This document shows, piece by piece, positions 9,583 to 62,290 of a stretch of DNA of 64,000 bases; position 1 is the first letter of the stretch, and the number at the start of each line of letters is the position of its first letter. A program made the position numbers and the translations under genes. Below the pieces are notes generated by a model, which was not told the DNA's origin, did no database searches, and saw only the letters and a list, made by a program, of their open reading frames with translations. The stretch is from Lutibacter profundi (GTDB lineage Bacteria > Bacteroidota > Bacteroidia > Flavobacteriales > Flavobacteriaceae). Location of the stretch: NCBI RefSeq assembly GCF_001543325.1, contig NZ_CP013355.1, forward strand, positions 1,022,001-1,086,000. The letters are read 5' to 3'.

Positions 9583-11493
9583 TTATTCTTCTTTTACTTC
9601 TTCAAAATCTACATCTTCAACATTATCACCTTCATCTTTTGATTCTGTACTACCAGCATCACCTGCAGGAGCTCCTTGAGTTTGTGCTTCTTGTTCAGCT
9701 TTATACATTTCTTCACTAGCTGATTTCCAAGCTTCATTAATTTTTTCCATTGCAGCATCAATTTGTGCAACATCTTTACTTTCATGAGCTTTTTTCAACT
9801 CAGTAAGCGCAGCTTCAATTGGATCTTTTTTATCAGCTGATAATTTATCACCAAACTCTTTTAATTGTTTTTCTGTTTGAAAAATCATAGAGTCTGCTCC
9901 ATTAATTTTATCAGCAATTTCTTTTGCTTTTTTATCAGCTTCAGCATTTGCCTCAGCATCAGCCTTCATTTTTTTAATTTCTTCCTCAGTTAAACCTGAT
10001 GAAGCCTCAATTCTAATTTCTTGAGATTTCCCAGTTGCTTTATCTGACGCAGATACCTTAATAATACCATTAGCATCAATATCAAAAGTAACTTCAATTT
10101 GAGGAACACCTCTTTGTGCTGGTGGAATTCCATCTAAATGAAATTTACCAATTGTTTTATTATCTGCTGCCATAGCACGATCACCTTGTAATACGTGAAT
10201 TTCTACTGATGGCTGATTATCTACCGCAGTTGAAAATACCTGAGATTTTTTTGTAGGTATAGTTGTATTTGCATCAATCAATTTGGTCATAACACCACCC
10301 ATAGTTTCAATACCTAATGAAAGTGGAGTAACATCTAACAACAATACATCTTTTACATCACCTGTTAAAACTCCTCCTTGAATTGCTGCTCCAATTGCTA
10401 CAACTTCATCTGGATTTACACCTTTATGAGGTTCTTTTCCAAAATATTTTTTCACATCCTCTTGAATAATTGGAATACGTGTTGAACCTCCAACTAAAAT
10501 AACTTCATCAATATCGGCAGTAGTAAGTCCTGCATCTTTCAATGCTTTTTCAACTGGTGCCATAGAACGTTTAACCAAACTATCTGATAATTGTTCAAAT
10601 TTTGCTCTTGTTAAAGTTCTAACTAAGTGTTTTGGCCCACTTGCTGTTGCAGTAACATAAGGTAAGTTAACTTCTGTTTTAGTAGCTGACGATAGTTCAA
10701 TCTTTGCTTTTTCAGCAGCTTCTTTTAAACGTTGTAAAGCCATTGGATCTTTACGTAAATCTATATTTTCTTCTTTATTAAATTCGTCTGCTAACCAATC
10801 AATAATCACTTGATCAAAATCATCTCCACCTAAATGCGTATCTCCATTAGTAGAAAGCACTTCAAAAACACCATCTCCAACTTCTAATATTGAAATATCA
10901 AAAGTACCACCACCTAAATCGTAAACGGCTATTTTTTCATCTTTTCCTTTCTTATCAATCCCGTAAGCTAATGCAGCTGCAGTAGGTTCGTTTATTATAC
11001 GACTCACTTTTAATCCAGCAATTTCACCTGCTTCTTTAGTTGCTTGACGCTGTGCATCATTAAAATATGCTGGTACTGTTATTACCGCTTCGCTAACAGT
11101 TGTTCCTAAATAATCTTCAGCTGTTTTTTTCATTTTTTGAAGAACCATAGCTGAAATTTCTTGAGGCGTATATAATCTTCCATCAATATCTACACGTGGA
11201 GTATCATTATCTCCTTTAACTACTTTATATGGAACTCTATCTGCTTCCATTTTAGACTCAGAATATTTATTTCCCATAAAACGTTTTATTGAATAAATCG
11301 TTTTTAAAGGATTGGTAACAGCTTGACGTTTTGCTGGATCACCAACTTTTCTTTCTCCACCTTCAATAAATGCAACAATTGATGGTGTAGTTCTTTTACC
11401 TTCTGCATTAGGAATTACCACTGGCTCATTTCCTTCCATTACAGAAACACAAGAGTTGGTTGTTCCTAAATCAATTCCTATAATTTTACTCAT
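9583..11493 (-). CDS. dnaK: Molecular chaperone DnaK (Hsp70)
   Basis: The 636-residue protein is a full-length Hsp70. It starts with [20 protein letters not shown] and contains the ATPase signatures ([50 protein letters not shown]), the conserved linker [15 protein letters not shown], the substrate-binding domain and an acidic C-terminal tail ending EEVKEE. It folds client proteins in the cytoplasm with DnaJ and GrpE. The gene is monocistronic here: no grpE or dnaJ follows. Its upstream region holds a compound element that is repeated in front of htpG with identical spacing, so common heat-shock control is likely. Identification is secure. Confidence 0.98.
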
Positions 11494-11546
11494 AATAATA
11501 TATTTTTAATTTTATTTTTTATTTTTTATTTAACAGTATCAATTAT

Positions 11547-11586
11547 TCAATGATTATGCCATTAAAAAAAATATGTCAAGTTGTCA
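11547..11586 (-). promoter_or_regulatory. Candidate heat-shock control element of dnaK (shared with htpG)
   Basis: Read in the direction of dnaK, this holds TGACA-ACT-TGACA, a 12-base AT spacer, TGGCA, 6 bases, TTGA, and lies 53 bases before the start codon. The same arrangement TGNCA-N3-TGNCA-N12-TGGYA-N6-TTGA occurs before htpG at 59513-59552. The right part resembles a -24/-12 element with GG and G(A) ten bases apart. The function is inferred from this recurrence. Confidence 0.55.
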
Positions 11587-59512: not shown

Positions 59513-59552
59513 TGCCAGTTTGTCATAAATTTTTGTTTGGTATTTTTTTTGA
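59513..59552 (+). promoter_or_regulatory. Candidate heat-shock control element of htpG (shared with dnaK)
   Basis: TGCCA-GTT-TGTCA (59513-59525), a 12-base spacer, TGGTA (59538-59542), six Ts, TTGA (59549-59552), 42 bases before the start codon. The pattern and every spacing are the same as before dnaK. The function is inferred. Confidence 0.55.
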
Positions 59553-59594
59553 CTATCAATTAATATAAATTATTAAAATTAAAAAACTTAAAAT

Positions 59595-61484
59595 ATGGCA
59601 ACAGGAAATATTAAAGTAACGGCTGAAAATATTTTTCCAATTATAAAAAAATTCTTGTATTCAGATCACGAAATATTTTTACGTGAACTAATTTCAAACG
59701 CAACCGATGCAACTTTAAAATTAAAACACTTATCAACCATTGGTGAAATAAAAGGTGATATTGGAGAACCAATAATTGAAATTAAAGTTGATAAAGACAA
59801 AAAAGAAATTAGAATTATTGACCAAGGGGTTGGTATGACTGGAGAAGAAGTTGAGAAGTATATTAATCAAATGGCTTTTTCTGGAGCTGAAGAATTTCTT
59901 GAAAAATATAAAGACAAAGTTGAAGATTCTGGAATTATTGGTCATTTTGGTCTCGGTTTTTATTCTTCATTTATGGTAGCTAAAAAGGTAGAAATTTTTA
60001 CCAAATCTTACCAAAAAGGGGCAAAAGCAGTACGTTGGGAGTGTGATGGGAGTCCAGAATACACACTAGAGGAAACTAAAAGAAAAGAAAGAGGAACAGA
60101 AATAGTTTTACATATTGATGATGATTCTACAGAATTTTTAGAAGAACATAAAATTAATGAACTTTTAAATAAATACAATAAGTTTATGCCTATTCCAATT
60201 AAATTTGGAACACGTGAAGAAACTTTACCATTGGCAGAAGATGCACCTAAAGATGCAAAACCTGAAAAAATTACAGTAGATAATATTGTAAACAACCCTA
60301 ATCCAGCTTGGACAAAAAGTCCGAATGATTTAAAAGATGAAGATTATAAAGCTTTTTACCGAGAATTGTATCCAATGCAATTTGAAGAGCCTTTATTTCA
60401 CATACATTTAAATGTTGATTATCCGTTTCACTTAACAGGTATTTTATATTTTCCTAAACTTAGTAAAAATTTAGACCCTACAAAAGATAGAATTCAATTG
60501 TACCAAAATCAAGTATTTGTTACTGATAATGTAGAAGGAATTGTACCCGATTTTTTACAAATGTTACGTGGTGTAATTGATTCACCAGATATTCCTTTAA
60601 ATGTGTCTCGCTCGTACTTACAATCAGATGCAGCGGTTAAAAAAATTGCAAGTTACATTACTAGAAAAGTAGCAGATAAATTAACTAGTTTATTTAAAAA
60701 AGATAGAAAAGCATTTGAGGAAAAATGGAATGATATTAAAGTTATTATTGAATACGGAATGCTTTCTGAAGATAAATTTTTCGAAAAATCAGATAAATTT
60801 GCTCTCTATCCAACTGTAGATAAAGAATATTTTGTTTGGAGTGAATTAGAAGAAAAAATTAAACCATCTCAAACAGATAAAGATGATAAATTAATTGTTT
60901 TATACGCTTCTGATGTTAAAGCGCAACACAGTTATATTGATGCTGCGAAAGAAAAAGGTTATACGGTATTATTATTGGATTCTCCTATTGTTTCTCATCT
61001 ATTACAAAAATTAGAAGGAAGCAAAAAAGATGTTCAATTTGTTCGTGTAGATGCTGATCATATTGATAATTTAATTAAAAAAGAAGATACCAAAATAAGT
61101 AAACTTTCAGATGAGGAAAAAGAAAAGTTAAAACCTATTATTGAAAAAGTAATTCCTAAAGAAACTTATACCGTTCAATTAGAAGCTTTGGATTCTAATG
61201 CCAATCCTTTTATTATTACGCAACCTGAATTTATGCGACGTATGAAAGAAATGCAAGCAACTGGTGGAGGAGGAATGATGGGAATGGGTAATTTCCCTGA
61301 AATGTACAATTTAGTTGTTAATACCAATAACGATTTGGTTAGTGAAATTTTAAGCACTAAAACTAAAAAGAAACAAGAGCGTTTAATTCAACAGGCTTTT
61401 GATTTAGCAAAACTATCTCAAGGTCTTTTACAAGGTGAAGAATTAACCAATTTTATAAAACGCAGTTTTCAAATGGTAAAATAA
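59595..61484 (+). CDS. htpG: Molecular chaperone HtpG (Hsp90)
   Basis: The 629-residue protein is a bacterial Hsp90. The N-terminal ATP-binding motifs are present: IFLRELISNATDA, IIDQGVGMTGEEVEKYINQMAFSGAEEF and IIGHFGLGFYSSFMVA; the middle domain has LYFPKLSKNLDPTKDRIQLYQNQVFVTDN and the C-terminal dimerisation region follows. The beginning (ATGNIKVTAENIFPIIKKFLYSD) is the Bacteroidota form. It lies opposite the GMC gene and has an element shared with dnaK. A terminator follows. Confidence 0.96.
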   Translation: MATGNIKVTAENIFPIIKKFLYSDHEIFLRELISNATDATLKLKHLSTIGEIKGDIGEPIIEIKVDKDKKEIRIIDQGVGMTGEEVEKYINQMAFSGAEEFLEKYKDKVEDSGIIGHFGLGFYSSFMVAKKVEIFTKSYQKGAKAVRWECDGSPEYTLEETKRKERGTEIVLHIDDDSTEFLEEHKINELLNKYNKFMPIPIKFGTREETLPLAEDAPKDAKPEKITVDNIVNNPNPAWTKSPNDLKDEDYKAFYRELYPMQFEEPLFHIHLNVDYPFHLTGILYFPKLSKNLDPTKDRIQLYQNQVFVTDNVEGIVPDFLQMLRGVIDSPDIPLNVSRSYLQSDAAVKKIASYITRKVADKLTSLFKKDRKAFEEKWNDIKVIIEYGMLSEDKFFEKSDKFALYPTVDKEYFVWSELEEKIKPSQTDKDDKLIVLYASDVKAQHSYIDAAKEKGYTVLLLDSPIVSHLLQKLEGSKKDVQFVRVDADHIDNLIKKEDTKISKLSDEEKEKLKPIIEKVIPKETYTVQLEALDSNANPFIITQPEFMRRMKEMQATGGGGMMGMGNFPEMYNLVVNTNNDLVSEILSTKTKKKQERLIQQAFDLAKLSQGLLQGEELTNFIKRSFQMVK

Positions 61485-61574: not shown

Positions 61575-61591
61575 TTGGCATTTTTTTTGCA
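61575..61591 (+). promoter_or_regulatory. Sigma-54-like -24/-12 promoter of the secreted protein gene
   Basis: TTGGCA (61575-61580), eight Ts, GCA (61589-61591): GG and GC are exactly ten bases apart, as in the sigma-54 consensus TTGGCAC-N5-TTGCA. It lies 24 bases before the next start codon. No TAnnTTTG box is present in the interval. The call rests on the pattern alone. Confidence 0.5.
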
Positions 61592-61615
61592 CTAAAGTAC
61601 CCAATGTAAATAGTT

Positions 61616-62290
61616 ATGACGCAAAACTTCAAAATAGCAACTCTAGCCTTTTTAATTACGCTACTAAATTCTTTTGCCCTATTTTCTCAAATTGATAGTA
61701 CAAAAACAATAAACAACGAAGTTGGTGTTACTATTTCAACAAACCAATTAAAAGCGAATCCATCAACCACAAAAACAAACCCAAATATTAATTTTAATAT
61801 TAATAAAAAAATAAATACCAAAGCAATAAATCAACATTTAAAGAAATATTCTAATAACAACAACTCTAACATGCTTCTTGAAAATCGCCCTGAAGATAAA
61901 GACATTATAGGAGTAAAATATTGGAAAGGTAAAGATGTAACTCACAAAAGTTTAGCGAGCACTTATGGTTTAGGAACTGTAACCACCACTAGCCGAATTG
62001 TTAAAATTGAAACAAGAGATCACAGTTATATTGATGGTGATCGTATTAAAATTTATTTGAATGAACAGGTTATAAGTAATAATGTTGGTTTAAAAGGAAG
62101 CTATTTTGTAATTTATGTTAAACTAAAAGATGGCTATAACAGAATTGATTTTCAAGCATTAAACCAAGGTTTCTCAGGACCTAATACCGCTGAATTTAGT
62201 TTGTATGATGCCAATGGAAATTTACTATCTGATAGAGAATGGAATTTAACAACTGGGCAAACCGCTACATTAGGAGTTATAAAACAATAA
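61616..62290 (+). CDS. Conserved secreted flavobacterial protein of unknown function
   Basis: The 224-residue protein has a signal peptide (about residues 1-25, ending FALFSQ), an Asn/Lys/Thr-rich linker of 75 residues and a C-terminal beta-sandwich-like domain with TTTSRIVKIETRDHSYIDGDRIKIYLNEQVI, GYNRIDFQALNQGFSGPNTAEFSLYDANGNL and a final strand TATLGVIK. I know this pattern from flavobacterial secreted proteins but not its function. A sigma-54-like promoter precedes it, unlike any other gene here. The NUDIX gene follows after nine bases. Confidence 0.72.
   Translation: MTQNFKIATLAFLITLLNSFALFSQIDSTKTINNEVGVTISTNQLKANPSTTKTNPNINFNINKKINTKAINQHLKKYSNNNNSNMLLENRPEDKDIIGVKYWKGKDVTHKSLASTYGLGTVTTTSRIVKIETRDHSYIDGDRIKIYLNEQVISNNVGLKGSYFVIYVKLKDGYNRIDFQALNQGFSGPNTAEFSLYDANGNLLSDREWNLTTGQTATLGVIKQ

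Follow-up and report, generated by a model that had tools for sequence, protein, structure and literature searches.

Upstream of dnaK and htpG in the 64 kb window, i.e. the whole stretch of DNA that was analysed, lies one compound element made up of a palindrome, TGNCA-N3-TGNCA, and a −24/−12-like element, TGGYA-N6-TTG. With sigma-54 and an enhancer-binding protein designated bEBP1, this element probably constitutes a heat-shock promoter common to the class Bacteroidia. Computation established how the element is built and how widely it occurs, that it is almost confined to chaperone and protein-quality genes, that its palindromes are phased at 10.5 bp at dnaK and htpG, and that bEBP1 is conserved.

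Anatomy and distribution of the element

On the minus strand, the dnaK (HSP70) coding sequence (9583–11493; Pfam HSP70, E 4.4e-264) is preceded by TGACA-ACT-TGACA-N12-TGGCA-N6-TTGA at 11586–11547, 53 bases before the ATG. The palindrome occupies 11574–11586, the −24-like TGGCA 11557–11561 (by sequence match and spacing rule) and the −12-like TTGA 11547–11550 (by sequence match and the tally of −12 bases). On the plus strand, the htpG (HSP90) coding sequence (59595–61484; Pfam HSP90, E 5.3e-46) is preceded by TGCCA-GTT-TGTCA-N12-TGGTA-N6-TTGA at 59513–59552, 42 bases before the ATG, with the palindrome at 59513–59525, TGGTA at 59538–59542 and TTGA at 59549–59552, the last two by sequence match. 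Both palindromes match at 8 of 8 positions, lie 12 bases from the −24-like element and are putative activator sites (UAS) centred near −45; transcripts are predicted to start near 11535 for dnaK and near 59564 for htpG. The initial annotation had described both elements in exactly this form. With up to 3 mismatches allowed they are the sole matches in the window, both exact, and their palindromes are its only two perfect copies of TGNCA-N3-TGNCA. Shuffled windows hold a mean of 0.32 matches at this tolerance, and at least two matches of this looseness turn up in 4 of 100 shuffles.

The TGNCA half-sites had been read as a repeat. The repeat is present, but its pattern is palindromic and can be one symmetric site; in the 119 sites listed from a scan of species genomes (below) it is extended by a C before (61 %) and a G after (47 %). 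A reading as an 8 bp direct repeat was dropped, the flanks being symmetric. With the second G of TGG placed at −24, the proximal palindrome would extend from about −51 to −39. Spacing, claimed to be exactly conserved, is identical at dnaK and htpG, but across the family a gap of 12 to TGGYA is strongly preferred rather than absolute: among the matches listed, 150 family sites (first half TGACA, gaps of 6 to 18 allowed, counted by hand, reversed control 0) have gaps of 12 in 135 cases, 13 in 11, 11 in 3 and 7 in 1.

The consensus base of sigma-54 promoters at −12 is C. The GG at −25/−24 within a TGGCA-like element is present at dnaK, htpG, grpE and hsp20 of the source genome, and the distance from −24 to −12 is fixed by a rigid 6-base spacing; of the TTG occurrences that follow a palindrome-TGGYA pair, 36 of 42 at htpG and 22 of 27 at dnaK have an offset of 6. 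The GC at −13/−12 (TTGC) is absent at dnaK and htpG and present at grpE of the source genome. A TTGA ending, as originally described, does occur at dnaK and htpG, but the base after TTG is variable over the 119 listed sites (A 64, T 32, C 22, G 1); 98 dnaK and htpG elements across families have A in 65, T in 16, C in 12 and G in 5. Because this base is mostly A and C is rare, the dnaK and htpG elements are classed as sigma-54-like only, and because it varies, models built on TTGC may miss many such promoters. The A at −12 in most sites, where sigma-54 should have a C, is the main doubt about the proposed promoter. The proposed likeness of TGGYA-TTGA to a −24/−12 element is upheld by the rigid 6-base spacing and by the transcript starts published for the same genes in Flavobacterium psychrophilum (main-text parts of PMC9723704).

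Neither gene had been thought to carry a TAnnTTTG box. None occurs in the 133-base upstream region of htpG, but dnaK has TACTTTTG 187 bases before it; lying far upstream on the dnaK strand, at −187, this box could give dnaK a further promoter, of the sigma-A type. The HrcA operator CIRCE is TTAGCACTC-N9-GAGTGCTAA. Its reported absence was borne out, a search of the window with this sequence giving 0 matches at up to 3 mismatches; by the operator sequence, dnaK and htpG fall outside the CIRCE/HrcA regulon.

In the source genome (2,966,978 bases, 2.97 Mb, one contig), a scan with up to 2 mismatches returned 4 matches. In addition to the exact ones at dnaK and htpG, there is one with 1 mismatch, TGTCA-TAT-TGGCA-N12-TGGCA-N6-TTGC, before the likely grpE start, and one with 2 mismatches directly before hsp20, beside a clpB-like ORF; the GrpE and HSP20 identities were confirmed by Pfam. 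For the family, class and phylum, exact matches to the pattern without its last A were counted, and the reversed pattern, used as a control, gave 0 matches in these scans and in the source genome. An exact match is found in 116 of 120 family genomes (119 genera), mostly 2 or 3 per genome, and in 95 of 247 class genomes, 152 being without one. A draw from the phylum yielded 54 of 296 genomes; by hand count, 52 of these are among the 73 class genomes and 2 among the 223 from elsewhere in the phylum. In the family and class scans, the palindromic site of dnaK is conserved before dnaK in the family.

Downstream genes were examined at 60 loci, one per genome, from 30 of the 116 family genomes and 30 of the 95 class genomes with matches. 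One of the genes htpG (25), grpE (16), dnaK (14) and hsp20 (1) follows at 56 of these 60 loci, and thioredoxin (3) or secA (1) at the others; secA and one thioredoxin were assigned by Pfam, the two other thioredoxins by eye. Thioredoxin (three loci: L049, L050 and L057) or secA (one locus, L023) thus stands behind the same promoter in some lineages, and given these loci the regulon may reach beyond chaperones.

The scan of species genomes, made with a pattern restricted to TGCCA in the first half and TGTCA in the second, found at least 119 matching stretches; the titles of all 119 listed denote Bacteroidota lineages. Among the matches listed, 108 of 119 sites precede grpE (41), htpG (34), dnaK (26), groES (3), hsp20 (2) or groEL (2). 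The other 11 comprise six apparent clpB-type ATPases (two checked by Pfam), two cut pieces starting like dnaK and htpG, one thioredoxin-like gene, one stretch with no recognisable chaperone gene nearby (L343) and one too short to tell (L361). Chaperone or protein-quality genes, some assigned by eye, therefore lie behind 60 of 60 loci and at least 117 of 119 listed sites. A genome scan of this kind had been proposed as a check on the compound pattern; the matches sit before chaperone genes, 4 of 4 in the source genome, and rather than falling at random genomic positions, which would have spoken against the pattern, they concentrate at chaperone genes.

Two of the genes deserve separate description. 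Of the 16 grpE sites (L005–L077), 8 end in TAnnTTTG and 8 show a C at −12, and grpE may carry overlapping sigma-A and sigma-54 promoters. Upstream of groES in the source genome (L046, 5548–5760) there is a single TGTCA half-site with the spacing one base short and a sigma-A-like TACTTTTG, together with a perfect TGACA-CGT-TGGCA palindrome at gap 52 (hand count) that overlaps the probable secG terminator. The groES promoter of the source genome departs from the rule, which counts against the main reading.

Helical phasing of distal palindromes

One genome was drawn from each of 70 families of the class, in which htpG was found in 55 and dnaK in 69. A compound score of at least 14 of 16 (gap 11–13) is reached by 45 of 55 htpG regions, 20 shuffled versions of each region never reaching it, and by 23 of 69 dnaK regions, where 0.05 are expected. 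The remaining 10 of 55 htpG regions stay under 14 although bEBP1 is present, which counts against the proposed promoter. Many dnaK promoters retain TGGYA-N6-TTG but have no palindrome at −45, and for this reason palindromes were sought further upstream.

An exact TGGYA-N6-TTG occurs in 98 of 124 upstream regions (37 of 55 for htpG, 61 of 69 for dnaK). The phasing test took these 98 regions, and the 26 with no exact TGGYA-N6-TTG (18 of 55 for htpG and 8 of 69 for dnaK) were excluded. A palindrome matching at 7 or 8 of 8 positions lies within 150 bp in 94 of the 98 promoters. Beyond gap 14 there are 75 sites, where shuffling predicts 4.1; the period that fits them best is 10.4 bp, with R 0.70 at 10.5. 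When the promoter element was chosen blind to palindromes there were 78 distal sites with R 0.685 and a nominal p of about 1e-16, a value that is too small, as families share ancestry. Of these, 66 lie within 2 bp of 12+10.5n (38 % expected) and 12 are out of phase. The gaps cluster at 11–13, 20–23, 33–35, 42–45, 53–55, 64–66, 73–77 and 85–86, the last with two sites only, and a few sites fall off the clusters, e.g. at gaps 2 to 6, 15, 47 and 58. Perfect palindromes alone give 11 distal sites with R 0.90. Taken alone, htpG shows weak phasing (p 0.02 over 12 distal sites). Three controls, palindromes matched in base composition, gave 9, 4 and 2 distal sites and no significant phasing. Common descent by itself would hardly account for some eight different positions that are all in phase.

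Distal palindromes appeared only in the one-per-family sample and not among 33 sites from the source genome and the family loci. No second exact palindrome was found within 300 bp upstream of these 33 sites, and in the 60 bases upstream of sites no position exceeds 0.7 bit. Because the palindrome moves in whole helix turns, it is taken as an activator (enhancer) site rather than an operator. The proposal of a heat-shock operator with a non-canonical promoter thus gained support from the genome scans in its general outline, but its 'operator' behaves like an activator site. Distal sites on the same face are what is expected of a looping activator, and their phasing suggests one. A genome of 0.49 Mb (G143; L290, L215) keeps rpoN, bEBP1 and a dnaK promoter with a −24/−12-like element; its palindrome matches at 7 of 8 positions and lies off phase, at gap 47.

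A candidate activator and the alternatives

Sigma-54 promoters require an AAA+ enhancer-binding protein (bEBP). The source genome has 9 matches to PF00158, two of them strong (E below 1e-66) and seven weak (E 2e-8 or worse), and only one of the two strong matches has an HTH. This protein, bEBP1 (L046:7372–8649, minus strand), consists by Pfam of an AAA+ domain, lid and HTH_8. The AAA+ domain begins at residue 20 with no domain before it, and HTH_8 lies at residues 387–423; in 67 readable representatives, at most 42 residues stretch from the previous stop to the common start. Its Sigma54_activat domain and Fis-type HTH make it a bEBP, and the lack of a regulatory domain places it in group 4. 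The loop motif in 68 representatives is GSFTGA (42), GAFTGA (16), GSFTSA (8) or GAFTSA (2), and the catalytic motifs, with Walker A/B and the arginine finger, are intact. Between the AAA+ lid and the HTH lies a moderately conserved, probably helical, ERDILYKVLFDMKKDLNDLKK-like segment with no Pfam match, which is a possible docking site for a regulator. Annotation of bEBP1 as PspF was rejected, the curated model TIGR02974 giving 274.2 bits against a cut-off of 443.55.

The gene order in the source genome is bEBP1-lptE-ORF-secG-groES-groEL, bEBP1 lying five genes upstream of groEL (lptE and secG were assigned by Pfam, groES and groEL by eye), and an LptE-like gene is next to bEBP1 in at least 56 of 70 family representatives. 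A search at E 1e-60 finds matches in 247 of 247 class genomes, a figure that includes bEBP paralogs and a few weak best matches; at E 1e-85 each of the 70 family representatives has a single match, in some cases a partial one. Among 67 readable sequences, 65 retain SERTLYRK as the recognition core. No contrast was found among family representatives between the HTH and the site in co-variation, because the recognition helix hardly varies; yet 10 of 55 htpG regions have no good site.

The gene rpoN was detected in 242 of 247 class genomes, and the pattern is present in none of the 5 genomes with no detectable rpoN. Among the matches listed, three of these 5 have a full-length bEBP1 (G149, G156, G238) and one a partial match with readable HTH (G136); rpoN may simply be missed in them, because all are assemblies of 130 to 460 contigs. 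One genome (G213) has two exact pattern matches but a best bEBP1 match of only E 9e-66, 7 of 24 candidates having been scored. Either bEBP1 was overlooked by the limited scoring or this is a real exception, and G213 slightly lowers confidence in the bEBP1 explanation.

The other strong match (L045:7929–9092, C1 near 2,934,000) is by Pfam a response regulator (REC-AAA) with no HTH, the same plan as FlgR and CtcC. In the window, a canonical sigma-54-like element, TGGCATTTTTTTTGCAC, is found at 61576–61592 (plus strand), 23 bases before an ORF of 224 aa (61616–62290) that has no Pfam match. No palindrome occurs within 150 bp of it, and this element may belong to the HTH-less bEBP.

In the mechanism proposed here, RNA polymerase with sigma-54 would occupy TGGYA-N6-TTG, and a bEBP1 dimer would bind the palindrome (C)TGNCA-N3-TGNCA(G), either as near as −45 or farther upstream by one to about seven helix turns, mostly on the same face. 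From its site, the bEBP1 ATPase would remodel the closed complex. Since bEBP1 has no sensor domain, a partner protein probably controls its activity, as happens with PspF. Heat would be the signal, acting on bEBP1 via the partner, and chaperone titration is an attractive guess for what bEBP1 senses. A site at −45 is closer than usual for an enhancer, which counts against this scheme.

A separate factor that is not a bEBP might bind the palindrome instead, with sigma-54 activated from solution by the HTH-less response regulator or by a site-independent bEBP. Such a REC-AAA protein exists in the source genome, group 5 bEBPs of this kind are known (FlgR and CtcC; passages of PMC7175178), and a −45 site would also suit a class II activator. 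However, palindromes found as far as about 120 bp upstream and mostly in phase suggest an activator that loops; the source genome has no strong HTH-bearing bEBP other than bEBP1, which occurs once per family representative; and neither a further exact palindrome nor an informative upstream position accompanies the 33 sites inspected. A separate factor is accordingly considered rather unlikely. The same phasing bears on an operator for a heat-shock repressor standing in functionally for HrcA or HspR. Palindromes close to the promoter are typical of repressors in general, but helix phasing over several turns and sites 60 to 120 bp upstream would be unneeded by one, and this explanation is very improbable.

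The elements could also be read by housekeeping sigma-A, or another factor of the sigma-70 kind, through an unusual −7 box ending in TTG, so that the sigma-54 likeness would be coincidental. The rarity of C at −12 speaks for this, as does TAnnTTTG, the sigma-A −7 box, at the end of half of the grpE sites; yet TAnnTTTG ends only 1 of 98 dnaK and htpG elements, the spacing of TGGYA-N6-TTG is rigid, rpoN is nearly ubiquitous in the class, and transcript starts in F. psychrophilum put the same genes under a sigma-54 motif (main-text parts of PMC9723704), all of which makes a sigma-A promoter distinctly improbable. That two upstream regions resembled each other by chance was conceivable at the outset, when there were only two instances and loose pairs arose in a few shuffled windows. 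The scans of the source genome, family, class and phylum rule this out for practical purposes, with the reversed control at 0 throughout and chaperone or protein-quality genes behind nearly every locus. The reading with bEBP1 and sigma-54 is therefore preferred.

Known systems and significance

The heat-shock systems of HrcA/CIRCE, RpoH and HspR overlap with the present one in target genes and differ from it in sites and proteins. The enhancer sites of NorR, GTCA-N3-TGAC, have the same geometry as the inner palindrome, and the title of a NorR paper names three enhancer sites; NorR has a GAF sensor for nitric oxide, unlike the sensorless bEBP1. The group 4 bEBPs PspF and HrpR/S share the plan of bEBP1, an AAA+ domain followed by an HTH with no N-terminal sensor (passages of PMC7175178). 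Relative to PspF, bEBP1 scores 274 bits, under the model cut-off, and adjoins lptE and groESL.

Sigma-54 control of these chaperone genes has already been published for F. psychrophilum and is not new. In the main-text parts of that study (PMC9723704), mapped starts show that groES-groEL, lon, dnaK, grpE-dnaJ, htpG and clpB carry sigma-54 (SM4) promoters, other sigma-54 promoters serving gliding motility and further functions. The sigma factors comprise only sigma-A, one sigma-54 and 7 ECF factors, hence no RpoH. Three proteins with a sigma-54 interaction domain are described, their targets left open, and the bEBP gene THC0290_0733 is followed by lptE and lies close to groES, as in the source genome; these main-text parts give no activator site and assign no bEBP to the chaperones. 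A survey with sigma-54 PSSMs (passages of PMC12316311) found chaperones enriched among predicted targets in Bacteroidota, most strongly in Flavobacteriia, and describes grpE as dependent on sigma-54 in B. thetaiotaomicron and F. psychrophilum. It models −24/−12 as TGGCAC-N5-7-TTGCT, and those passages contain no upstream site, phasing or assigned activator. In the main texts covered, a part of the open-licence PMC literature, no paper was found with the palindrome, its phasing, its class-wide spread or the assignment to one bEBP. New here is that the palindrome also occurs farther upstream in steps of 10.5 bp, as seen in one genome per family.

Bacteroidia rank as a dominant class in human gut, soil and marine communities, and within the same partial coverage of the open-licence PMC literature no paper was found that names the factor driving their heat-shock genes. 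With a specific site, a candidate activator and the exact bases to mutate, the question of the heat-shock regulator becomes directly testable. According to passages of a 2020 review (PMC7175178), the upstream site has been missing from all structural studies of bEBPs so far. With their phased sites, some 70 families amount to a natural experiment on the way in which sigma-54 activators gain access to the promoter. A wider proposal, for which the chances appear evenly balanced, is that Bacteroidia mount their heat-shock response without RpoH or HrcA, one sensorless bEBP, present once per genome and encoded next to lptE, reading unfolded-protein stress, perhaps through titration of chaperones, and firing sigma-54-like chaperone promoters with an unusual A at −12 from sites that slide, mostly in whole turns, between enhancer distance and −45. 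If this is true, the genomes of the class preserve a record of an enhancer turning into an activator site fixed close to the promoter.
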